A stretch of DNA of 38,657 nt from Candidatus Omnitrophota bacterium. Its GTDB lineage: Bacteria; Omnitrophota; Gorgyraeia; Gygaellales; Profunditerraquicolaceae. The notes beneath the pieces were generated by a model that did not search any database, was not told where the DNA came from, and saw nothing but the letters and a program-made list of their open reading frames with translations. The stretch covers positions 1 through 38,657 of the forward strand of contig JAMWCI010000005.1 in assembly GCA_023818655.1 (NCBI GenBank), written 5' to 3'. Shown here in pieces: positions 3,241 through 15,554 of the stretch (position 1 is the stretch's first letter; each line of letters starts with the position of its first letter). A program made the position numbers and the translations under genes.

Positions 3241-3852
3241 TTAAGACTTGATTACCGCCTGACGGCGACAACGGGGACAAAGGATTTTGATACGGTCTGA
3301 CCGAAGAAAATCCCCTTCTTTGCGCCGAGAAATATTTTCTTTTAAGGCAAGCCCGAACGACTTCAAATAAAAGAGCATAAGCGATGCGTTGCTAAAGGTT
3401 AGCGGTCCCAGTCTTTTGGCTACCCAGGTATACTGAGCAGAAGGAACAATCGGCTGAGCGCAGCAATCACAAAGCACAAAATCCTTCTCCACTCCGTCTT
3501 TTAATTGTTGTCTGTTTTCGGTAGTGGCAAAAGCAAACTCCTGCGAAAGGATTATCCCTTTCCCGGTAAGGCAGTTCGCTTGGCATTGCCCGCAGAAGAT
3601 GCAAATATCCCAATGAATAGTTAATTTCCTTTTTGCCTGGCCGTCCTGAATAATATCCTCAACCTCTATCGCCTTTGCAGGACAAACCTGAGCACAGGCA
3701 GCACATCCGGTGCAATCTTCTTCATGAAAATATGGCCTGCCGCGGAAACGTTCATAGGGCTGATGCGGTTGGCAAGGAAACTTAGAGGTATAAGGACCTT
3801 TCAGCAGAGCCTTTATCGCTTCTTTTAATTCTCTTAATTTTGGGTATCTCAT
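3241..3852 (-). CDS. NuoI/MbhN-like 4Fe-4S ferredoxin subunit of membrane-bound hydrogenase
   Basis: CTGCAACAQVCPAKAIEV and CIFCGQCQANC motifs; last gene of the Mrp-hydrogenase run. Confidence 0.85.
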   Translation of the reverse strand: MRYPKLRELKEAIKALLKGPYTSKFPCQPHQPYERFRGRPYFHEEDCTGCAACAQVCPAKAIEVEDIIQDGQAKRKLTIHWDICIFCGQCQANCLTGKGIILSQEFAFATTENRQQLKDGVEKDFVLCDCCAQPIVPSAQYTWVAKRLGPLTFSNASLMLFYLKSFGLALKENISRRKEGDFLRSDRIKILCPRCRRQAVIKS

Positions 3853-3868
3853 TTATCCGTTTGATGCG

Positions 3869-4195
3869 CTATTTTTTGTCCTCGGCATACTTGTCACAGA
3901 CTGACTTGTCGCACAATTTCACCCCTGATTTATGCGCGCCTCTTGCTAAGGCATGGGCAGCTACAGGAGAGGTAAGCAGCAAAAATACAATCGTAAGTAG
4001 CGCTTTTATACCGGTGGCGCAAAACCCTTTCAAAATAAATGTGCCGAAAAGTATACCGCAGGTGCCCAAGGTAACGCATTTGGTTGTCGCCTGGAGGCGA
4101 TTATAGACATCCGGCAACCGGATCAGGCCAATGCAACCAAATATATCAAATCCTAATCCCACAACAATAAAAAGTGTTCCTATGGCCTCACTCAT
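3869..4195 (-). CDS. MrpG/MnhG-like (MbhC) antiporter subunit
   Basis: MSEAIGTLFIVVGLGFDIFGCIGLIRLPDVYNRLQATTKCVTLG, typical MrpG; operon position. Confidence 0.88.
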   Translation of the reverse strand: MSEAIGTLFIVVGLGFDIFGCIGLIRLPDVYNRLQATTKCVTLGTCGILFGTFILKGFCATGIKALLTIVFLLLTSPVAAHALARGAHKSGVKLCDKSVCDKYAEDKK

Positions 4196-4547
4196 CAAAC
4201 CCTCTTCCCTCCAAATACTTTGCCAATGCCAAGGCTCCGATAAAACTTTGCAAACCCCAGGCAATAGCGACATCCAGATACCAGTCCCTGCCTGTAGGTA
4301 TGCTTAAAATCGCGCAAAATCCCACAATCAGTATTCCTAGGGTATCAATTGCCACTGCCCGGTCAGCGGCGGTTGGTCCAAGCATTACCCTGATTAGACA
4401 CAAAGAAAAACAGAGCATCAGCACAAAAAAACAGCGGGACAAAAAGGGCGATTGCCACCCCAGTAAAGACGGTATGGGATAAATCCCGATAAAAAATATT
4501 GCGGCCAATATAAAAATAAGACCTATAAAATAACGGAGTTTCTGCAT
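4188..4547 (-). CDS. MrpF/MnhF-like (MbhB) antiporter subunit
   Basis: CLIRVMLGPTAADRAVAIDTLGILIVGFCA, typical MrpF. Confidence 0.88.
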   Translation of the reverse strand: MQKLRYFIGLIFILAAIFFIGIYPIPSLLGWQSPFLSRCFFVLMLCFSLCLIRVMLGPTAADRAVAIDTLGILIVGFCAILSIPTGRDWYLDVAIAWGLQSFIGALALAKYLEGRGFDE

Positions 4548-4557
4548 AGGGATTTAA

Positions 4558-5052
4558 TTAATCAAAAATCTTCCTTAATATATTCTCGAATTTCTTAACA
4601 ATTAACTGTGTGGCCTTTTCTGTATCTTGACTCTGGACATAAATCCAGTGTATATAAAGAATACCCTCCTTGGGGTCGATATCCACACAGAATGTGCCCG
4701 GGGTAAGGGTTATAGAATTAGCCAGAAAAGTAAGTGCGGTGTCAGACTTGAGCGTGGTTTTAACCCTGACAATACCCGGATTAATGGGAAGAGACGGATT
4801 CAACACCCTCAAGGCAACATCGATATTTGCCTTTAGGCATTCCCAGAGAAACATCGGCACATAATAACAGAACCAGACATATCTAGTTATCTGCCTAAGA
4901 CGGTGGATTCTCTGGGAAAAAAGGTCGCCGGTGACAAAGGTTACAAATCCGGCCACAGGCAACCCGATCAAGACATGCTGCAAATCTACCGGCCAACCCA
5001 GAAGTAGCCAGATTAAATAACCTATAATAAATAATACCATCCTGCTTTTCAT
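4558..5052 (-). CDS. MrpE/MnhE-like (MbhA) antiporter subunit
   Basis: Likely start MKSRMVLFIIGYLIWLLLGWPVD; LTPGTFCVDIDPKEGILYIHWI is MrpE-typical. ORF-track start lies inside the upstream gene. Confidence 0.87.
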   Translation of the reverse strand: MKSRMVLFIIGYLIWLLLGWPVDLQHVLIGLPVAGFVTFVTGDLFSQRIHRLRQITRYVWFCYYVPMFLWECLKANIDVALRVLNPSLPINPGIVRVKTTLKSDTALTFLANSITLTPGTFCVDIDPKEGILYIHWIYVQSQDTEKATQLIVKKFENILRKIFD

Positions 5053-6557
5053 CTTAAAGCCGCCTCTATAACATCCTTGGCATAAGCAGTACCTTTTAAC
5101 AAAACATCTGCCGCATCGCCCATAAAACTCTGCAAGGAAGTCAGGAGCAATAACCCTCCCAATAAACAGACAATAGCTAAACAGACGGTGGAGATTACCA
5201 TTGACCAAGGCGCCTCTTTAACCTCTTTAAATTTATCTTTCAACTCGCCAGAGAACAAAAATTTCTGCACTTTCGTAAAAGACGCCAGGGTCAGGATGCT
5301 GGCGATAATCGCGCAAGAGGCATAGCCAAAATAACCTTTCTGGACACAGGCGAATATAATCAGAAGCTTGCTAAAGAAGCCATTAAATGGCGGTATTCCG
5401 GCGATGGACATAGAAGCTATAAGGTTAGTCTTTGCGGTTATCGGCATAACCTTGGCCAATCCCCCTGTTTCTCTCAAGTCCCTGGTATCTAAGGCATAAT
5501 CTATGGAGCCGGAATTCAAAAAAAGCAATGACTTAAACACAGAGTGGTTAAAAAGATGGAAGAGGCCGCCTAATATACCTAAAGGCGTGCCTAAACCAAT
5601 ACCTAAAACCACATATCCTATCTGGCTAATGGAATGATACGCTAAGAGTCTTTTTAGATCCCACTGTGATAAAGCCAATATCACCCCTACCAACATCGAA
5701 AGGGCGCCCAGAAACATTAATACCGAAAGGTAGTTCTGTGTTGAGCCAATTATATTAAAGAAAACCCTCGCCAAGGCATAAATGCCCAAAGTCTTAATCA
5801 GGATACCGGAAAGCATGGCAGAGATAGATGCAGGCGCAGAAGGGTGTGCATCCGGTAACCATGCGTGAAAAGGAACCAGGGCCGCCTTCAATCCAAACCC
5901 CATCAAAAACAAGACCCCTACAAAGTGCACGAGATAGGCATTCTGTTTAAAACTTAACACCCTGGCCATATCCGCCATGTTCAGGGTTGAAGTGAATCCA
6001 TAGAGAAAAGCTATGCCAATAAAGATAAAGCTTGAGGCCACCGAACCCATAATCGCATATTTAAAGGATGCCTCCAGTTCTTCTGCCTCTGTGCCAAATG
6101 CCACTAAGGCATAGCTGGCAATAGAGGCAATTTCCAGGAAGACAAAGAGGTTGAATAAATCTCCGGTGATAATTACGCCGTTCATACCACAGAGCATTAA
6201 AGAAAAGAGGGTAAAAAATTTCGGTTTATCGGTATATTTATTCATATACTTTAGCGAATAAACAGCTACGCAAAAAGTAACGAGGTTTACCGTGACCAGC
6301 ATAAAAGAACTCAGACCGTCCAGAACCATAGCGATACCAAAAGGAGGAACCCATCCGCCTACTTTATAAACCAGGATTTTGTCTGTTAGTGAATTAAGCA
6401 ATATCCGGGCATGCAGGGATAAATATAAAAGCATGGCGCAACTAAGAAAGACAGCAAACTCCGAAAACCTTTTGACTAATCTCCCTAACAACGGAATCAA
6501 AAACGCCGCAGTCAAGGGTATAATTACAAATAAAGGTATAATATTTACTGTCTTCAT
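5049..6557 (-). CDS. MrpD/NuoN-like (MbhH) proton/sodium-translocating subunit
   Basis: Multi-TM protein with GLKAALVPFHAWLPDAHPSAPASISAMLSGILIKTLGIYAL and LAYHSISQIGYVVLGIGLG. Confidence 0.92.
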   Translation of the reverse strand: MKTVNIIPLFVIIPLTAAFLIPLLGRLVKRFSEFAVFLSCAMLLYLSLHARILLNSLTDKILVYKVGGWVPPFGIAMVLDGLSSFMLVTVNLVTFCVAVYSLKYMNKYTDKPKFFTLFSLMLCGMNGVIITGDLFNLFVFLEIASIASYALVAFGTEAEELEASFKYAIMGSVASSFIFIGIAFLYGFTSTLNMADMARVLSFKQNAYLVHFVGVLFLMGFGLKAALVPFHAWLPDAHPSAPASISAMLSGILIKTLGIYALARVFFNIIGSTQNYLSVLMFLGALSMLVGVILALSQWDLKRLLAYHSISQIGYVVLGIGLGTPLGILGGLFHLFNHSVFKSLLFLNSGSIDYALDTRDLRETGGLAKVMPITAKTNLIASMSIAGIPPFNGFFSKLLIIFACVQKGYFGYASCAIIASILTLASFTKVQKFLFSGELKDKFKEVKEAPWSMVISTVCLAIVCLLGGLLLLTSLQSFMGDAADVLLKGTAYAKDVIEAALR

Positions 6558-6896
6558 TTAACCTTTCAGCTTTTTTATCTTGGTGATATCAAAGGTGCCG
6601 TATTTCTCGTAAATCCTAATGGCGATAGAGATAACCAAAGCCATAACCCCTAAACCGATGACAATAGAAGTAAGCACCAGCGCCTGCGGCAGAGGATCTA
6701 CCATAGTCAGGATTGCCTGATCCTGCGCATCTATAGGGGCCCTGCCCTGGAAACGGTAGCCTAACAAGACAAAAAATAAATTCATCGAATATTCTATAAT
6801 ACCTAAGCCGATAATTATCTTTACAAGATTGCGTTTGCGTAAAACGCCGTACAGACCGATACTAAATAAGACTATGCACAAGAGATAAAGAATCAT
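6558..6896 (-). CDS. MrpC/NuoK-like (MbhG) subunit
   Basis: LLCIVLFSIGLYGVLRKRNLVKIIIGLGIIEYSMNLFFV...DPLPQALVLTSIVIGLG. Confidence 0.92.
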   Translation of the reverse strand: MILYLLCIVLFSIGLYGVLRKRNLVKIIIGLGIIEYSMNLFFVLLGYRFQGRAPIDAQDQAILTMVDPLPQALVLTSIVIGLGVMALVISIAIRIYEKYGTFDITKIKKLKG

Positions 6897-7342
6897 TTTT
6901 CCTTTTTCGCCTTTTCTAACAGCACTAGCGCCAGAAAAATAGCAAAGAGGCCTAAGCCGACCTTTATCCCAATAGAGATATTGCTTAAAGGAATGGTGCC
7001 GGCGCTAAACAGCTTAAATGGCGTTCCTTTGCTTAAAATATTCAAGAAAAATGAGCCACCCAAGAATCCCAGAAGCGCAATCGATAAAAACATAATTGCG
7101 CCCAGACTCTCCAGATTAGAAGCGAGGTTCTTGGAGATTTTGCTTACCGCCACATCCTTGCCAAAAGCAAGCATAAGATGAACAAACGACAAAGCCACAA
7201 TTACCCCTCCGGCAAAACCTCCTCCGGGAGACAGGTGTCCGTGTAAAACAATATAGATGCCAAAAAGCAAGATTAATCCTACTGTAAGGCGGGTAATGGT
7301 CTTCACAATCAAGGTCATTCCGGTTTTGGAATCAGTAGTCAT
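6893..7342 (-). CDS. MrpB/MnhB-like (MbhF) subunit
   Basis: GIYIVLHGHLSPGGGFAGGVIVALSF signature. Confidence 0.92.
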   Translation of the reverse strand: MTTDSKTGMTLIVKTITRLTVGLILLFGIYIVLHGHLSPGGGFAGGVIVALSFVHLMLAFGKDVAVSKISKNLASNLESLGAIMFLSIALLGFLGGSFFLNILSKGTPFKLFSAGTIPLSNISIGIKVGLGLFAIFLALVLLEKAKKEK

Positions 7343-7343
7343 C

Positions 7344-7865
7344 TTATTTTTTCTTAATCCTTCCGGGGCGACGTAAAACCGTCATAATTCCAATCACCGA
7401 GGTAAATAAAACCGTGGCCTCCCCCAGCGTGTCATAAGCGCGGAAGTCCAAGATAATCGCGGTCACTAAATTAACTGCCCCTGTCCTGCCTTCGCCTTCC
7501 TGCAGGTATTTTTTAACTACCGCCATTATCGGTTCGCCAAAACGCGGTAATTCTCTAAGCGCAAGCCAGGCAAAAAACAAAAACAGACAGATAAAAGCCA
7601 ATGTAGAAATGGTATTAAAGACCCAGCGGCCCTCTATAACCAAAGGCAGGTCCCGTTTAATCGTAGCGCGGATTAAGATAATCAGACATAAAATCTCAAC
7701 TACCAATTGGGTAATGGCCAAGTCCGGCGCCTTAAGGATTAAAAAGGCCAGACACAAAGCAAAACCCACCGCACCTACCGCAATCACACTGGAAAGCAAA
7801 TCCTTAACCTCAATGGCTATAATTGCGGCAAAGATCATAAACAACAAAAGGATATGCAGCTCCAT
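7344..7865 (-). CDS. MrpA C-terminal-like (fused MbhD/MbhE) subunit
   Basis: AVGFALCLAFLILKAPDLAITQLVVE and NLVTAIILDFRAYDTLGEATVLFTSVIGI. Confidence 0.9.
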   Translation of the reverse strand: MELHILLLFMIFAAIIAIEVKDLLSSVIAVGAVGFALCLAFLILKAPDLAITQLVVEILCLIILIRATIKRDLPLVIEGRWVFNTISTLAFICLFLFFAWLALRELPRFGEPIMAVVKKYLQEGEGRTGAVNLVTAIILDFRAYDTLGEATVLFTSVIGIMTVLRRPGRIKKK

Positions 7866-7866
7866 A

Positions 7867-9525
7867 TTACCTCATCAAAACCCAGAATAGCCCCATCATT
7901 CCCAAAAGAGTCCAGACCAGATAGGTGGGCAAGACTCCGTTATGCAGATATTGAAAGAATCTGCCCACTGCAAAAACCAGTGTTTTGCCTTGTTCGTAAA
8001 TATCGAAAAAACCCTTTTCTGCTTTCTTATAAATGAATTTTAAAACACCGAATTCCTTTATGGTATTATAGAACTCTATCCCAGTAACCCGGCCTTTACT
8101 TAAATCTATGGGCTCTCCTCCTACGAAACTCGCATCTTGACGTATGTTTGGCCTTAAGCTCTTTAACATAAAAACTATTGCTCCTAAACCTAAAGCCAAA
8201 ACAATAAGCAGGGTGGAGTATCCCGCGTACCATATTCCGGTAAAAGTAACCCCGGTTATCGCAGGCAGAATAAACATCTTGAGCGGAATCTGCAGGGCGA
8301 ATACGCCAAAGATAACACAGATTACAGCCAGAACAATACAGGGTAGCCACATTGTCGCAGGAACTTCATCTATATGTTTCTCTGGATATCTATTTTGTTG
8401 TTGGCCGAGAAAAATGGCATGAAGCAGCTTCATAAAACTGGCCAAGGTAAGCCCTGAGCCAAACATCGCCGCTGCCAAACAGAATACCGCTGTAAGTCGC
8501 AGGAGGTAATTAGCGGTTGTTAATTGGGTTATCAACCCCTGATAAATCATCCATTTAGAAGCAAAACCATTAAAAGGAGGAACTCCGGATATAGAGAGAC
8601 TGGCAACGAGACAGGCTATATAGGTAAAAGGCATTGACTTTGCTAACCCTCCCAACCTATCCAGCTCATCTGTATGCGTACGATACTCCACATTGCCGCC
8701 TGTAAAGAATAAACAGGATTTATATACCGCGTGATTCAACATATGGAATAAACCGCCGGCTATGCCAACAGGATTTCCTGTCCCTATACCCAAAATCATA
8801 TATCCTACCTGAGAAACTGCATGGTAACCAAGAAGTCTTTTGAAATTATGCTGAATAAGCGCCATCATTACCGCGGCAATTATAGTGAATGCCCCTATAG
8901 TCATCAAAAAGATATTCATCCCTTCATTCATCACAAATAAATTTAAGGAAATCCTGGCCAAGAGATAGACCCCTAGTAATTTGTCAAGGGAAGCAGGCAA
9001 AAAAGCTACTACCGTCACAGGCGCGCTTTCCGCGCAATCCGGAACCCAGGAATGAAAAGGCATTGCCCCTGCCTTGGCAAAACTAGCTACGGCTATACAT
9101 AGGTAGGCGGCAATTGCCAAAGCGCTGTCTAGCGGAACTCTTATCTTATCCATAACCCAAGTTCCCGTTAAATAATAAAGCATACCTATCCCCAACAGCA
9201 TCAGGGCATCAGAGCCGCCTACGATGATAAACGTCTTTTTTGCCACTACCCCGCTGTCTTTATCGCCCAGACCAATAAGCAGGTATAAGGTCAAACCCAA
9301 AAATCCCCAGAGCGCAAGAAGCACGATAAGATGATTAGCAAGGACTGTGGCTATAGAGACGATACCCGTTAATAAGATATAGGTATAATATTGCGCCAAA
9401 TGTTCTTTTCTCCTCATAAAACCAAAAGAGTAGACCAAAGTCAAGACGCAAAAGATGAACATAGCCAAGGTCACGAATCCGCTTAAATGGTCTAATTTAA
9501 AGTATGAAAATAAGGCTCCACTCAT
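7867..9525 (-). CDS. NuoL/MrpA N-terminal-like antiporter subunit (second large antiporter-like subunit)
   Basis: SFAKAGAMPFHSWVPDCAESAPVTVVAFLPASLDKLLGVYLL, LLGYHAVSQVGYMILGIGTG. Confidence 0.9.
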   Translation of the reverse strand: MSGALFSYFKLDHLSGFVTLAMFIFCVLTLVYSFGFMRRKEHLAQYYTYILLTGIVSIATVLANHLIVLLALWGFLGLTLYLLIGLGDKDSGVVAKKTFIIVGGSDALMLLGIGMLYYLTGTWVMDKIRVPLDSALAIAAYLCIAVASFAKAGAMPFHSWVPDCAESAPVTVVAFLPASLDKLLGVYLLARISLNLFVMNEGMNIFLMTIGAFTIIAAVMMALIQHNFKRLLGYHAVSQVGYMILGIGTGNPVGIAGGLFHMLNHAVYKSCLFFTGGNVEYRTHTDELDRLGGLAKSMPFTYIACLVASLSISGVPPFNGFASKWMIYQGLITQLTTANYLLRLTAVFCLAAAMFGSGLTLASFMKLLHAIFLGQQQNRYPEKHIDEVPATMWLPCIVLAVICVIFGVFALQIPLKMFILPAITGVTFTGIWYAGYSTLLIVLALGLGAIVFMLKSLRPNIRQDASFVGGEPIDLSKGRVTGIEFYNTIKEFGVLKFIYKKAEKGFFDIYEQGKTLVFAVGRFFQYLHNGVLPTYLVWTLLGMMGLFWVLMR

Positions 9526-10142
9526 GATTTTATTTTTAACAGATTCTTAGCTATCTTCTTAGTATGGTAATAAACCGCTGCGGTAAAATCCAGCATGTTT
9601 AGGTACATATTGCAGGCGATGGGGATACAGGCGCCTGTAAGTAAACGTTGATTATGCCTCTGGCGGAGCTCATCCACCAGAGTGTCAATATGCTCCTCTT
9701 TTCTTAAGACGCTTTTTACTAAGTTGAAGTCTTCGTTTTCAAAGGCACAGACTATTTCCGACATAACGTCTTCAGTCTTGCGATATAGGATTTCGTATTC
9801 CTTGACTGCCTCTTCGCTAAAAAGCAATTTTTCCTCAATCTTTATCTGCACCCGTTCCAGTATATCTTTGCAATAATCCCCAATCAATTCTAAGTCGCCT
9901 ACTATATCGGCGTATATCGCAAACTCTGCCTTATCGCCTTTATCGCTAAACTCTCGCCCTAATCTTACCAAATCAGAGGTTATCTCTTTTTCTAATTCAT
10001 TCAACTTATTTTCATCCTCTAAAACCTCGGAGATTAAATCCGCATTGTGCTCAAGGAAAGTGCGGTGGGTTGTCTTCCACATCTTGAGAGCAAGCTTAGA
10101 CATCTGGCTAATTTTTTTCTTTATGTTGTTTAAATCCTGCAT
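9522..10142 (-). CDS. PhoU-like helical-bundle protein embedded in the hydrogenase operon
   Basis: Start revised to MQDLNNIKKKISQ (TAATG overlap with large-subunit stop); LIGDYCKDILERV... repeated PhoU-like helical pattern. Confidence 0.78.
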   Translation of the reverse strand: MQDLNNIKKKISQMSKLALKMWKTTHRTFLEHNADLISEVLEDENKLNELEKEITSDLVRLGREFSDKGDKAEFAIYADIVGDLELIGDYCKDILERVQIKIEEKLLFSEEAVKEYEILYRKTEDVMSEIVCAFENEDFNLVKSVLRKEEHIDTLVDELRQRHNQRLLTGACIPIACNMYLNMLDFTAAVYYHTKKIAKNLLKIKS

Positions 10143-11341
10143 TACAGAAGCATCTCCTTTATCTTGTTGGTCTTTTCCTGAGATAGCTTTATTAAATCCC
10201 ACCCGTTCATTATCTTTTTGTCGGTAGACCGGTTTATTACCGCTACCCTCTCAGTACAACAGTAACAGGGGTCTACCGCTGCCAGAGTAATAGTGGCGTC
10301 GGCTATAGTCCCTCCTACTGCCGCCACCTTATTGGAGGCAACATTCATAAAACTCGGGGCACGGATTTTATGTCTAACCGGACGGTTAGTCCCGTCGCTT
10401 TTTATGTAGTGTATGCATTCTCCGCGCGGGGCTTCTACCCTGCCAATACCTTCTCCCGGCGGAATATCTTTAACATCGGCATCTATCGGGCCATTAGGCA
10501 GCTTCTTCAGGCATTGGCGGATGATATTTACGGAATCCTGCATTTCGAAGATTCTTACCAATGTCTTGGCGTAGACATCCCCTTCTTTTTGCAAGACCAC
10601 ATTCCAGTCAATAGTCCCCAGGAGTAAAGCACCGTACGGTTCATCGCGGCGCACATCTATATTTACTCCTGAGGCGCGGGCTGTAGGACCTATTACGCAC
10701 CATTCAATTGCCTGTTCTTTGGTAAGTATCCCTGCGCCTTTTAACCGCGCCTGTATGACCGGATCATCCATTACCGCGCCGCGGAACATCTCTAATGCCG
10801 GTAAAAGTTCATCCAGTGTTTTATTTAATAAAGGTAGATCCTCCTCTTTTATATCGCGCCGCACCCCACCAACTTTAAACATGGCGTAATTGTTGCGGTT
10901 TCCGGTAATCATCTCAAACATATCCAAAATCGGCTCGCGGTACTTCCAAGCCCACATCCATACCGTGTTATAACCGATAAAATGCCCGGCTAAACCCAGC
11001 CAAAGAAGATGACTGTGTATCCTTTGCAACTCATCAATAATGGTGCGTATATAAAGGGCTCGTTCCGGGACAACCGCTCCTTCGCCACCAAGTATATCTT
11101 CTACTGCCAGAACATAAGCATACGGATGGCTGGAAGAACAGATACCGCATATACGTTCTACCACAAAGGCGATCTGGTCGTAATGTTTGCTCTCGCAGAT
11201 TTTTTCTATTCCGCGGTGATTATAACCAATGATAATATCAATATCTACAACCTTCTCCCCTTCCACATAGAGCTGGAAAAATTCCGGCTCTTCTTGTAAA
11301 GGATGGTAAGGACCAATAGGGACAATAACTTTATGGCTCAT
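10142..11341 (-). CDS. Group 4 [NiFe]-hydrogenase large (catalytic) subunit, MbhL/NuoD-like
   Basis: ERICGICSSSHPYAY and C-terminal DPCYCCTER: both CxxC nickel-ligand motifs retained. Confidence 0.92.
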   Translation of the reverse strand: MSHKVIVPIGPYHPLQEEPEFFQLYVEGEKVVDIDIIIGYNHRGIEKICESKHYDQIAFVVERICGICSSSHPYAYVLAVEDILGGEGAVVPERALYIRTIIDELQRIHSHLLWLGLAGHFIGYNTVWMWAWKYREPILDMFEMITGNRNNYAMFKVGGVRRDIKEEDLPLLNKTLDELLPALEMFRGAVMDDPVIQARLKGAGILTKEQAIEWCVIGPTARASGVNIDVRRDEPYGALLLGTIDWNVVLQKEGDVYAKTLVRIFEMQDSVNIIRQCLKKLPNGPIDADVKDIPPGEGIGRVEAPRGECIHYIKSDGTNRPVRHKIRAPSFMNVASNKVAAVGGTIADATITLAAVDPCYCCTERVAVINRSTDKKIMNGWDLIKLSQEKTNKIKEMLL

Positions 11342-11766
11342 TTGTTCTGCCTCAAAGGGTAATTATCCTGCGGCCAATCGTCTGCCAAAAGCAGCCGTTT
11401 CAGATTAGGATGGCCTTTGAAATTTATACCCAGCATCTCCCACATCTCCCTCTCAATCCATTCCGCCCCCTGAAAAATAGGCGTGATGGCGTCTATTTCA
11501 GGATGCTCTTTATCATTAATTTCCACACGCAAAGAATAAATCTCTCCTGTCTGGTCAAAACTGAAGTGGTAGAGAATTTCAAATCCGGAAGGCGTCTGGC
11601 TTCCAGAGGCGGTAGAAAACCTCAATCCTAAATCCTTAAATAAAAATCTTGCTGTCTCATAAAGATCTTCTTTGCGTACGCTAAAATAAATCCTGCGGCT
11701 GGACCTCTCCTGCCAGGAAATTATCTTGCCTGCCAGTTTCTCTCTGATGCTTTCTTTTATCTTCAT
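11338..11766 (-). CDS. NuoC/MbhK-like hydrogenase subunit
   Basis: AITPIFQGAEWIEREMWEMLGINFKGHPNLKRLLLADDWPQDNYPLR. Confidence 0.92.
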   Translation of the reverse strand: MKIKESIREKLAGKIISWQERSSRRIYFSVRKEDLYETARFLFKDLGLRFSTASGSQTPSGFEILYHFSFDQTGEIYSLRVEINDKEHPEIDAITPIFQGAEWIEREMWEMLGINFKGHPNLKRLLLADDWPQDNYPLRQNK

Positions 11767-12188
11767 TTTTTGCTCTTTAGTTTATTGACCAGTTTTACAA
11801 TGCCGTCAATCATCGCTTCGGGTTTAGGCGGGCATCCCGGAATATACAAATCCACCGGCAAGATTTTATCCAGCGGCTCTTCCACATTATAGCTATATCT
11901 AAACAGATGCCTGGATAAGGCGCATTGCCCAACGGCAACCACCACGCAGGGTTTAGGCGCCTGCTCATATATCTTTTTCATGCGGACTACCGCCTTTTTG
12001 TTCATAGCACCAGTGATAAGAAGCGCGTCTGCGTGCCTTACTGAGCCGACCAGTTGTATGCCAAAACGCTCCACATCATGCCTAGGCGTCAACAAATCCA
12101 ATATCTCAATATCGCAGTTATTGCAGGAGCCAGCGCTTACATGAAAAACCCAGATAGATTTGGTTAAGGCCGAAAGCTTAAAGTCCAT
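11763..12188 (-). CDS. NuoB/MbhJ-like small hydrogenase subunit
   Basis: SCNNCDIEILDLL, VGQCALS, PGCPPKPEAM cysteines for the proximal 4Fe-4S cluster. Confidence 0.93.
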   Translation of the reverse strand: MDFKLSALTKSIWVFHVSAGSCNNCDIEILDLLTPRHDVERFGIQLVGSVRHADALLITGAMNKKAVVRMKKIYEQAPKPCVVVAVGQCALSRHLFRYSYNVEEPLDKILPVDLYIPGCPPKPEAMIDGIVKLVNKLKSKK

Positions 12189-12191
12189 ATA

Positions 12192-13118
12192 CTATAATCC
12201 AAAATACCCCAAAATAACGGCTAATATCGCCAATAACGTCGGTATCCGCCAAAAGAATCTCAAACTTTGGTCAATGCGCAAACGAGGGCTTGTATTTTTT
12301 ATCAGAATGATAACTATCAATAAAGCGATAAATTTTCCTATAACAGATAGCATAGTTAAATTCTGACCCAAGAAAAGTATAATTAATAAAACCGGCAGGG
12401 TATAAAGTAACATGGCCTTGATTAACTTAAAAATAGCTAAAGGCAATCCTGAGTATTCAATCAAGACCCCTCCCATTATCTCCTGTTCGGCCTCTGAGAC
12501 ATCAAAGGGAACAAACCCCAGTTTTGCCTGTATGCAAAGTACGGATACCAAAAAGGCAATCAAACCTGACCAGGAAAAAATATTAGAGCCGAAGAGCGCT
12601 TGGTGATTAAGGATGGTCCCAAACTGAATAGCTCCGCCGCTCTTGATGATAATCGCGATGATAGACAGGATAAACGGCAATTCATAGGCTAAAATCAATT
12701 TCATCTCCCGAGATGCGCCCACCGAAGCCAATGGATTCCTTGATGCGGAGGCGCCTAAAATCAGGCTTATCGCAGGTATAACTAAGAGGTACAAAACCAC
12801 AACCAAGTCTCCGGAAAATCCTTGAGATGGAGATATAATATTTCTGCCCAGTATCGTCGCCACCAAGACCAAACTTGCCAGACCCAGACAAGGCGCTAAT
12901 AAAAAGGTTAACTTGGCAGAAGAAGGCAGGATAGTTTCCTTGCCCAATAATTTTAGAATATCTGCAAAATTCTGATACCAAGGAGGACCTTTACGCCATT
13001 GCAGCCGGGCGGTAACCTTCCTGTCAAACCAGCCAGCGATTAAACCAATACAGACGCTGAATAAAAAACCGGGAAAAATCAAATAATTAAATATGATGTT
13101 TAGCATGCGATTTATCAC
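12192..13118 (-). CDS. NuoH/MbhM-like membrane subunit
   Basis: RKVTARLQWRKGPPWYQNFADILKLLGKE, FVPFDVSEAEQEIMGGVLIEYSG. Confidence 0.93.
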   Translation of the reverse strand: MINRMLNIIFNYLIFPGFLFSVCIGLIAGWFDRKVTARLQWRKGPPWYQNFADILKLLGKETILPSSAKLTFLLAPCLGLASLVLVATILGRNIISPSQGFSGDLVVVLYLLVIPAISLILGASASRNPLASVGASREMKLILAYELPFILSIIAIIIKSGGAIQFGTILNHQALFGSNIFSWSGLIAFLVSVLCIQAKLGFVPFDVSEAEQEIMGGVLIEYSGLPLAIFKLIKAMLLYTLPVLLIILFLGQNLTMLSVIGKFIALLIVIILIKNTSPRLRIDQSLRFFWRIPTLLAILAVILGYFGL

Positions 13119-13165: not shown

Positions 13166-13663
13166 CTATTTTTTCTTAAGTGGTTGCATATCCTCTCTAG
13201 ACCACTTGCGGGTATGCACCGCCAGATGCTCACCGACAAAATAAATATCGCTCTCCAAATCTTCTTCTCCTATATCTCTTACTTCTATCGCCTTCTCAGG
13301 ACAGGTGGTGACGCATTTAGGCGCCCCTGCCGTTAATCCTACGCAATAATCGCACCGAGAGTCCAAATAGGGAATAAAATCCTGAAAGATAACTCCAAAT
13401 GGACAGGCTACAGTGCAGGACTTGCAGCTGGTGCAGCGCATCTTATAACGTTTAAGATGTCCGTCTGGCTGCCTCTCCAGCGCATTGTGGTAACAGGAGT
13501 TTACGCAGGGCGCCTGTTCACAGTGCCTGCAGATAGTGGCAAAGGTCGCGTATTCGCGCAGACTTGCGATACCGTTATTCTGCGGATGATAAAAATAATC
13601 GCAAGACACCTGACAGTCGCCACATCTGTTACATATTTCTAAATCCACAAATAAACGTTTCAT
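13166..13663 (-). CDS. 4Fe-4S ferredoxin electron-transfer protein (HydN/CooF-like)
   Basis: CNRCGDCQVSC, CRHCEQAPCVNSC, CTSCKSCTVACPFGV cysteine clusters. Confidence 0.82.
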   Translation of the reverse strand: MKRLFVDLEICNRCGDCQVSCDYFYHPQNNGIASLREYATFATICRHCEQAPCVNSCYHNALERQPDGHLKRYKMRCTSCKSCTVACPFGVIFQDFIPYLDSRCDYCVGLTAGAPKCVTTCPEKAIEVRDIGEEDLESDIYFVGEHLAVHTRKWSREDMQPLKKK

Positions 13664-13672
13664 CTTATTGAA

Positions 13673-14491
13673 TTAATCCCATATATCGCGTATATCCTTC
13701 AATTGCTCAAAGGTAAATACCGGACCATCCTTGCAGGCATAGTATCGGCCAATGCGACAATGACCGCATTTACCCAAGCCGCAAGACATACTTTTTTCCA
13801 TAGAGAGATAGATATCAACCGGCTTGAAACCTAAATCCAAGAGTTTCAACGTAACAAATTTCATCATAATCGGAGGACCGCAAACAATAGACACTGCCTT
13901 TTTTAAATCTACAGGCAAATCCTTCAGGATGGTAGTAACTAAACCCACGTGGCCTTTCCAGGTAGCATCCCCTACGTCAACCGTAGTCAGAATATCCACT
14001 TTCTTCTTTTTCTGCCACTGCGGCAAGGCGTCTTTATAGACTATATCAACAGGGGTGCGTGCGCCGTAACGTAGCACCACTTTGTTGTAATTGTCTATAT
14101 CGGAAAAAAGACTAAGGAGAAGGGAACGCAAAGGTGCCAGTCCCACTCCTCCGCCGACAATCAACACATCTTTATTCTTAAATTTATCCAAGGGGTAGCC
14201 TTGTCCGAATGGACCGCGTATCCCCAAAACCATACCTTCCTTTATGGCATGTATATAGGAAGTAACCCTTCCAACCTTCATAATAGTTACGTCTATCTTG
14301 TCTTTGACCCCCGGGTCAGAAGAGGGGGTAAAAGGTGCCTCTCCCGCTCCCGGAACAGTCAACTCGATGAATTGACCAGTCTGAAAGGAAAAATCGAATT
14401 TCGGTTTAAGGACAAAAGTTTTAATCGTAGGTGTCTCTGCAATAATCTCTTCAACCCTCGCCTCAAGCGGCTGGTATATATTTCTCTTCAT
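13673..14491 (-). CDS. FAD/NAD(P)-binding oxidoreductase, sulfhydrogenase gamma-like (HydG/AsrB type)
   Basis: GQFIELTVPGAGEAPFTPSS, VGGGVGLAPLRSLL, VCGPPIMMKFV, CGLGKCGHCRIG 2Fe-2S motif. Confidence 0.87.
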   Translation of the reverse strand: MKRNIYQPLEARVEEIIAETPTIKTFVLKPKFDFSFQTGQFIELTVPGAGEAPFTPSSDPGVKDKIDVTIMKVGRVTSYIHAIKEGMVLGIRGPFGQGYPLDKFKNKDVLIVGGGVGLAPLRSLLLSLFSDIDNYNKVVLRYGARTPVDIVYKDALPQWQKKKKVDILTTVDVGDATWKGHVGLVTTILKDLPVDLKKAVSIVCGPPIMMKFVTLKLLDLGFKPVDIYLSMEKSMSCGLGKCGHCRIGRYYACKDGPVFTFEQLKDIRDIWD

Positions 14492-15554
14492 AGAGTCTTC
14501 TTAATATATAACGGATATCAATCTTTCCCGGACAGACATCAATGCACCTGCCGCATCCGCAACAGGCCTGAATACCCATATTGTCAATAAAGAAATCAAA
14601 CTTCTTCAGATACCGGTTGCGCAACCTCATATAACGCATCTTTAAAGGGTTTGCGCCTCCGGCAACAAGAGTAAAATTCTTGAACAAGCAACCATCCCAT
14701 AAACGTAAGCGTCTTGCGTTTTCTCCGACTGGCTCGTCGCTCAGCAGAAAACAATGACAGGTATCGCACATAAATACGCACCCGCCGCACTCCACGCATG
14801 TCTTCATCTGCTCCTGCCATATCTTAGAGCTGTATCCAGAGGTAACGATATCCTTAAGGGTTTCTTTCTTGGGGATTTTATGCTGCGCCAGGTGTTCCTC
14901 CAATCTCCTGACCACTAACTCCCTTTTGGATGCCCTGCCTGAAAGCTGTCCTGCGGTAGCAGGAGAAAATACCTCTTTAATACTATCCGCTATATCCTTG
15001 GCTTTCTGTGTAGCTATATCTACCAGAAAACCGTTGTTTAAAGGAGATAAATTAAAATCAAATCCTTCTTCCACAAAAGGATTGATATCAAATGCGCGGC
15101 AGAAACAGGCCTCTTTAAACGCAGTGCAGTCGCCGCTTATAATCAGTGCGCTCTGGCGACGTTCCTTATACTGCTGGTCTACTACATCTGGACCGAGAAA
15201 AACCCAATCCTGGATCTTTAAGGAGAAGATATCACAGTTCTTTATACCGTAAACAGCCAAGGGCCTCTCTTTTGCTTTCTTGTCTTCGCAAAAATACTGG
15301 CTTACTTCTTCTTTACACGGTGTAAAATATGTGCGGGCTGGCTCTATCGAACGGTATTCATTAAAAATTATTGATTCTTCATTTAACTGGGTGTATTTCT
15401 CTAAAAAATAATCCTCGGCAGGAAGGCTAAAGCCAAAATCGCATTTAACCTTGGCGGTCGTGTTTATTTTGCAGGGGACATATAGTTCATAATCCAAAGA
15501 AATCCTGTCTAAAAACTTGAAAAAATCCTCGCTCTTCAGAAAAAGTGTATCCAT
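14463..15554 (-). CDS. 4Fe-4S protein, sulfhydrogenase beta-like (HydB/AsrA type)
   Basis: GIKNCDIFSLKIQDWVFLG, CVECGGCVFMCDTCHCF, ACCGCGRCIDVCPGKIDI. Confidence 0.85.
   Translation of the reverse strand: MDTLFLKSEDFFKFLDRISLDYELYVPCKINTTAKVKCDFGFSLPAEDYFLEKYTQLNEESIIFNEYRSIEPARTYFTPCKEEVSQYFCEDKKAKERPLAVYGIKNCDIFSLKIQDWVFLGPDVVDQQYKERRQSALIISGDCTAFKEACFCRAFDINPFVEEGFDFNLSPLNNGFLVDIATQKAKDIADSIKEVFSPATAGQLSGRASKRELVVRRLEEHLAQHKIPKKETLKDIVTSGYSSKIWQEQMKTCVECGGCVFMCDTCHCFLLSDEPVGENARRLRLWDGCLFKNFTLVAGGANPLKMRYMRLRNRYLKKFDFFIDNMGIQACCGCGRCIDVCPGKIDIRYILRRLYEEKYIPAA

Follow-up and report, generated by a model that had tools for sequence, protein, structure and literature searches.

A PhoU-family gene is embedded in a hydrogenase operon of the window, the 38,657-nucleotide stretch of Candidatus Omnitrophota DNA analysed here, and on balance its product is probably a dedicated accessory protein of a group 4 [NiFe] hydrogenase-antiporter complex (Mbh-type, probably Fd/NAD(P)H-linked). 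Comparisons among genomes favor a subunit dedicated to the hydrogenase complex, with an accessory or regulatory role, over a gate specific to the Mrp module; both function and binding partner are predictions. The operon runs on the minus strand in the order HydB, HydG, 4Fe-4S, NuoH, NuoB, NuoC, large subunit, PhoU, NuoL/MrpA-type, DUF4040-like, MnhB-G and NuoI-like:

14463..15554, minus strand: HydB/AsrA-like Fe-S subunit (PF17179, E=7e-27; sulfhydrogenase beta models below cut-offs)
13673..14491, minus strand: HydG/AsrB-like FAD/NAD(P)-binding diaphorase subunit (PF00175, E=1.5e-17; sulfite_red_B and sulfhydrogenase gamma models below cut-offs)
13166..13663, minus strand: 4Fe-4S ferredoxin-like electron-transfer subunit (PF13247, E=1.7e-11)
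12192..13118, minus strand: NuoH/MbhM-like membrane subunit (PF00146, E=1.5e-60)
11763..12188, minus strand: NuoB/MbhJ-like small subunit (PF01058, E=6e-28)
11338..11766, minus strand: NuoC/MbhK-like subunit (PF00329, E=3.6e-28)
10142..11341, minus strand: [NiFe] hydrogenase large subunit, MbhL/NuoD-like (RICGIC and DPCYCC; best PDB match 6cfw_L, E=1.2e-87; TAATG with PhoU)
9522..10142, minus strand: PhoU-family protein, 206 aa, two tandem three-helix bundles (PF01895; AlphaFold2 model with PhoU fold; clade of hydrogenase-linked PhoU)
7867..9525, minus strand: NuoL/MrpA-type antiporter subunit, 552 aa (PF00361, E=4e-55; best PDB matches 6cfw_H and MrpA 6z16_A; ATGA with PhoU)
7344..7865, minus strand: MrpA C-terminal/DUF4040-like subunit (position and conserved homologs in related operons; named by inspection, outside the profile search)
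3869..7342, minus strand: MnhB, C, D, E, F and G (MrpB-G) antiporter subunits (synteny with related loci; MnhG PF03334, E=1.5e-24; others named by inspection)
3241..3852, minus strand: 2x[4Fe-4S] NuoI/MbhN-like subunit at the operon end (CxxCxxCxxxCP motifs; named by inspection)

The CxxC ligand motifs of the large subunit, RICGIC and DPCYCC, align with CGIC and DPCxxC of 6cfw_L, the Pyrococcus furiosus MBH large subunit and the closest PDB structure. These two NiFe-ligand motifs, which mark group 4 [NiFe] hydrogenases, together with the proximity to 6cfw_L, identify the protein as a hydrogenase subunit rather than one of complex I. Assignment to group 4g follows the Omnitrophota literature, in which Mrp-linked group 4g hydrogenases have already been reported (PMC8542988); HydDB lists the function of group 4g as unknown (PMC5037454). 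The complex resembles archaeal Mbh (group 4d) and HydDB group 4g enzymes in its large subunit and its Mrp-type module, and differs from them by the addition of HydB/HydG diaphorase subunits and the PhoU gene. Sulfhydrogenase/Asr-type HydB/HydG diaphorase genes (13673-15554) form the head of this Mbh-Mrp operon, and the complex as a whole could be a membrane-bound hydrogenase that is linked to ferredoxin as well as to NAD(P)H. The NuoL/MrpA-like subunit is shorter than canonical NuoL/MrpA by ~60 residues at the N-terminus, or roughly two helices; its counterparts are similarly short in PhoU-bearing and in many PhoU-less operons.

The PhoU gene is tightly coupled to both neighbors, in the window and in most relatives. 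As the initial annotation had proposed, its start overlaps the catalytic-subunit gene through TAATG (stop TAA at 10144-10142, ATG at 10142-10140), and its stop overlaps the NuoL-like start through ATGA (9525-9522). An upstream GTG at 10202 would lengthen the protein by 20 aa, but homologs start at the ATG, with M1 near-invariant in the alignment. Phosphate-transport genes had also been described as absent nearby, and inspection of the window ORFs by eye revealed no Pst, Pit or NptA gene; profile scans covered the operon proteins.

Membership in the PhoU family is evident from both profile and structural comparisons. PF01895 (Pfam PhoU) matches the protein at 71.9 bits (E=5.7e-20, cut-off 23.5), and an AlphaFold2 model built from 48 sequences (mean pLDDT 92, pTM 0.90) displays the two tandem three-helix bundles of the family. 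The best PDB matches of the model are all PhoU proteins (4q25 and 1t72, TM 0.86-0.89 across the full length). The metal motifs are only partly retained, one kept and one lost. According to work cited in PMC5686610, E(D)xxxD motifs are the iron-cluster binding sites of Thermotoga PhoU. The first, E85xxxD89, is invariant in 48 of 48 hydrogenase-linked sequences; the second is found in none of them versus all 11 Pst-PhoU, which carry both, and its E and D positions are occupied throughout by A/G/N and R/Y/H/N. Other residues are fixed in the hydrogenase-linked group, including N178, D185 and H193, with C172 in 47 of 48. H163xxR166 is universal both here and in the 23 NptA-type domains examined, and absent from the 11 Pst-PhoU.

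Phylogeny places these proteins apart from other PhoU groups. In a tree with Pst-PhoU and NptA-type domains, the 48 aligned hydrogenase-linked sequences form one clade (support 100/97) and Pst-PhoU another (100/100). The comparison with canonical PhoU suggested in the initial annotation thus reveals no clustering with Pst-linked proteins. Pst-linked PhoU shares with the window protein its fold, length and first ExxxD motif; the window protein differs in lacking the second motif, in having no pst genes in its operon, and in scoring 47.4 bits against the TIGR02135 (Pst-PhoU equivalog) cut-off of 130.25. The PhoU domain of NptA-type Na+/phosphate cotransporters, which combine PF02690 with PF01895, is the more similar of the two. 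A hydrogenase-PhoU profile HMM matches NptA-type domains over their whole length at 99-118 bits, versus 38-70 bits for Pst-PhoU, and this score difference and the shared H163xxR166 signature, mostly accompanied by GxC, both point to NptA. On the other hand, the window PhoU is an unfused 206-aa ORF that has lost the second ExxxD, belongs to a separate clade and is predicted to partner a hydrogenase complex. From these sequence relationships, hydrogenase-PhoU may descend from a single recruitment of an NptA-type transporter domain, with later retention, relocation inside the operon or loss. Such descent is not proven by a three-group tree with no outside root, and nesting inside the NptA domains was rejected as unsupported, given three separate clades. 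No NptA-type transporter or PF02690 (Na_Pi_cotrans) protein was found in the window genome. At one locus elsewhere (L229:3972-5678), an NptA-type gene is split into three ORFs and the final one encodes a PhoU domain on its own, which shows a route to separation. A further accessory PhoU-like gene beside its transporter gene is PitR, the partner of PitA (PMC13170248); the window protein differs from it in having no PitR/DUF47-type profile in family scans and no adjacent pitA.

The arrangement recurs widely. When contigs of ~85,000 species genomes were searched with the aligned PhoU family, all 62 loci recovered lay inside the same hydrogenase-antiporter operon, which, with the purifying selection on the gene, excludes chance and confirms that the PhoU ORF is a real part of it. 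PhoU follows the large subunit (MbhL) at 44 loci, two of them cut upstream, and MnhG at the operon end at 17; at the remaining one, L163, it lies between NuoH and NuoB. MbhL is present on 55 of the 62 contigs and its 3' end on one more (L165); contig ends truncate the operon at the remaining six loci, where antiporter genes are present. By label, 61 loci are from Omnitrophota and one, L163, is from a Nitrospirota MAG, a label that may be wrong because its group has only 9 genomes in the genome library. A protein search of 285 Omnitrophota genomes gave 18 orthologs, 42-66% identical and each located after the large subunit, followed by about a dozen proteins at around 30%, of which two lie after the large subunit and most others directly after MnhG. 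Weaker matches (21-31% identity, in ORFs of 536-591 aa) were set aside as NptA-type fusions outside the operon. The search for homologs in other genomes advised by the initial annotation therefore shows an arrangement that is not unique to this contig; this recurrence, along with the separation from Pst-linked PhoU, supports an accessory role.

Some apparent exceptions have other origins. Scaffold N gaps in two single-contig, chromosome-like records split the operon and imitate gene loss. L165 resembled a hydrogenase-free Mrp and PhoU locus and was rejected as an assembly artefact, because a 100-N gap (9824-9923) lies just upstream, followed by bases encoding the MbhL C-terminus. Similarly, L108 looked like a hydrogenase core with neither antiporter nor PhoU, and is cut by an N gap (6523-6622). 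Counting against the accessory reading, one genome, G206, carries a divergent, unlinked hydrogenase-type PhoU (L062:565-1233) and an intact PhoU-less operon (L077).

The initial annotation had suggested that the protein helps to assemble or gate the Mrp module. Its conservation and non-Pst clade uphold the accessory role; the Mrp-specific part is not supported. As a gate, PhoU would bind the NuoL/MrpA-like subunit and open or close ion translocation. Consistent with this, an antiporter subunit directly follows PhoU at 43 scan loci, with a median 4-nt overlap; the 17 loci with PhoU after MnhG mean that both common positions adjoin antiporter genes; and the protein resembles NptA-type domains, whose transporters are Na+-coupled. 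However, MrpB-G is absent from the operon in ~10 PhoU loci, where one or two NuoL-like genes follow PhoU, and the NuoI/MbhN-like gene is also found after NuoL in such operons. MnhB was undetectable in the four PhoU genomes searched that have no MrpB-G in the operon (G102 masked beyond the operon, the G184 and G216 loci readable). The antiporter adjoining PhoU is of three different kinds across loci, and at L163 PhoU lies between NuoH and NuoB. Moreover, PhoU distances correlate with those of MbhL (r=0.88) and HydG (r=0.87) versus r=0.31 for the NuoL-like subunit (NuoL_A), over 24 loci in which antiporter paralogs are mixed; these sequence distances are weak evidence that PhoU has diverged in step with the hydrogenase core and not with the neighboring antiporter. 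Taken together, the MrpB-G-less loci, the variable antiporter, the distance pattern and the lack of PhoU in a second hydrogenase cluster (L118-L123) favor a link between PhoU and this particular hydrogenase complex without pointing to the Mrp module, and a dedicated gate seems rather unlikely.

A second proposal is that PhoU is an assembly or maturation factor, a scaffold or metal carrier that builds the complex and stays outside the working enzyme. The gene often lies between two halves of the complex, and the retained metal-type motif E85xxxD89 together with invariant H163, D185 and H193 and the nearly invariant C172 would suit a metal carrier. The distribution of the gene argues against this role. 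A large subunit of this type (at least 61% identical) occurs in 79 of the 285 Omnitrophota genomes, and PhoU is linked to it in 31; the other 48, which include the nearest kin of carriers, have no linked copy, so assembly works without PhoU. PhoU-less operons are otherwise the same, and their large-subunit and NuoL genes overlap directly (median -4 nt). Presence or absence changes 13 times on the MbhL tree, a count reduced from 14 after L094 and L102, initially scored as PhoU-less, each proved to have a PhoU gene elsewhere in the genome, on a separate contig. Close relatives differ, as in L050 (with PhoU) and L075 (without) or L046 (with) and L071 (without), indicating that PhoU is not needed to build the enzyme. 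Presence in 31 of 79 genomes and the 13 changes make it optional, and the genomic pattern indicates that the protein is dispensable to this hydrogenase. As most Omnitrophota hydrogenase-Mrp operons have no PhoU, an obligatory assembly role is unlikely, and assembly in any form is less probable than gating.

Less probable again is a role in phosphate signaling, in which PhoU would read energy state indirectly, through the hydrogenase or ion flux, and report to a PhoR-type sensor. The precedent comes from Staphylococcus aureus, in which three PhoU clades tested repress PhoR together with the transporter (PMC13170248). Against it, the window genome already has a Pst-PhoU, encoded in a pstS-C-A-B-B-phoU operon on a different contig, no phosphate-transport gene stands alongside in the loci read gene by gene, and the second canonical motif is lost. 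Finally, a passenger gene with no function in the complex would fit a scattered distribution in which near relatives cleanly lack it, but is disfavored to the point of being barely credible by the confinement to one operon type at three positions, by purifying selection (dN/dS 0.07 and 0.15, two usable pairs), and by invariant residues that persist among proteins of 26-68% identity.

A dedicated accessory subunit of the hydrogenase complex therefore remains the preferred reading, and a working model can be proposed for it. The protein has no membrane segment and so is presumably cytosolic. Its docking site would be on the cytoplasmic face of the complex, with the hydrogenase arm or the junction with the first antiporter subunit likelier than MrpB-G. 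There, a cytosolic cue such as metal, phosphate or energy state may lead it to tune or shut down turnover. The loss of one of the two canonical metal motifs counts against this model. This control is modeled by analogy with known PhoU clades, each of which pairs with one transporter, in part modulating import (PMC13170248). More tentatively, and with somewhat less confidence than the accessory role itself, the hydrogenase-linked proteins might constitute a fourth PhoU clade, partnered with a redox-driven ion pump instead of a phosphate importer; in response to a signal in the cytosol they would reversibly throttle a membrane hydrogenase.

A 2026 survey distinguished three clades of PhoU, each associated with a single phosphate importer (PMC13170248). 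A further clade tied to a hydrogenase would show a wider role for PhoU, as a cytosolic regulator of ion-coupled membrane machines more generally. No literature linking PhoU to such hydrogenases was found in searches combining it with hydrogenase, Mrp or membrane-bound hydrogenase, with subscription papers and preprints largely outside their reach, and the word PhoU is absent from the report on Mrp-linked group 4g in Omnitrophota (PMC8542988). If the model holds, a relative of complex I has a built-in regulator, and a dedicated, dispensable partner suggests a new way to regulate ion-pumping membrane hydrogenases. Few dedicated regulatory subunits are known for energy-converting hydrogenases and complex I relatives. 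PhoU is a testable candidate for one in a large uncultured phylum, and its natural dispensability suits it to comparison of enzymes with and without it.

Several of the genomes also carry another Mbh/complex I-like cluster that includes several antiporter subunits and a large subunit 44-48% identical to that of the window; the six such loci read (L118-L123) have no PhoU. In one PhoU-less operon of the first type (L084:1432-4299, genome G211), the large and NuoL-like subunits share one frame of ~955 codons, possibly a fusion at the junction that PhoU occupies elsewhere.
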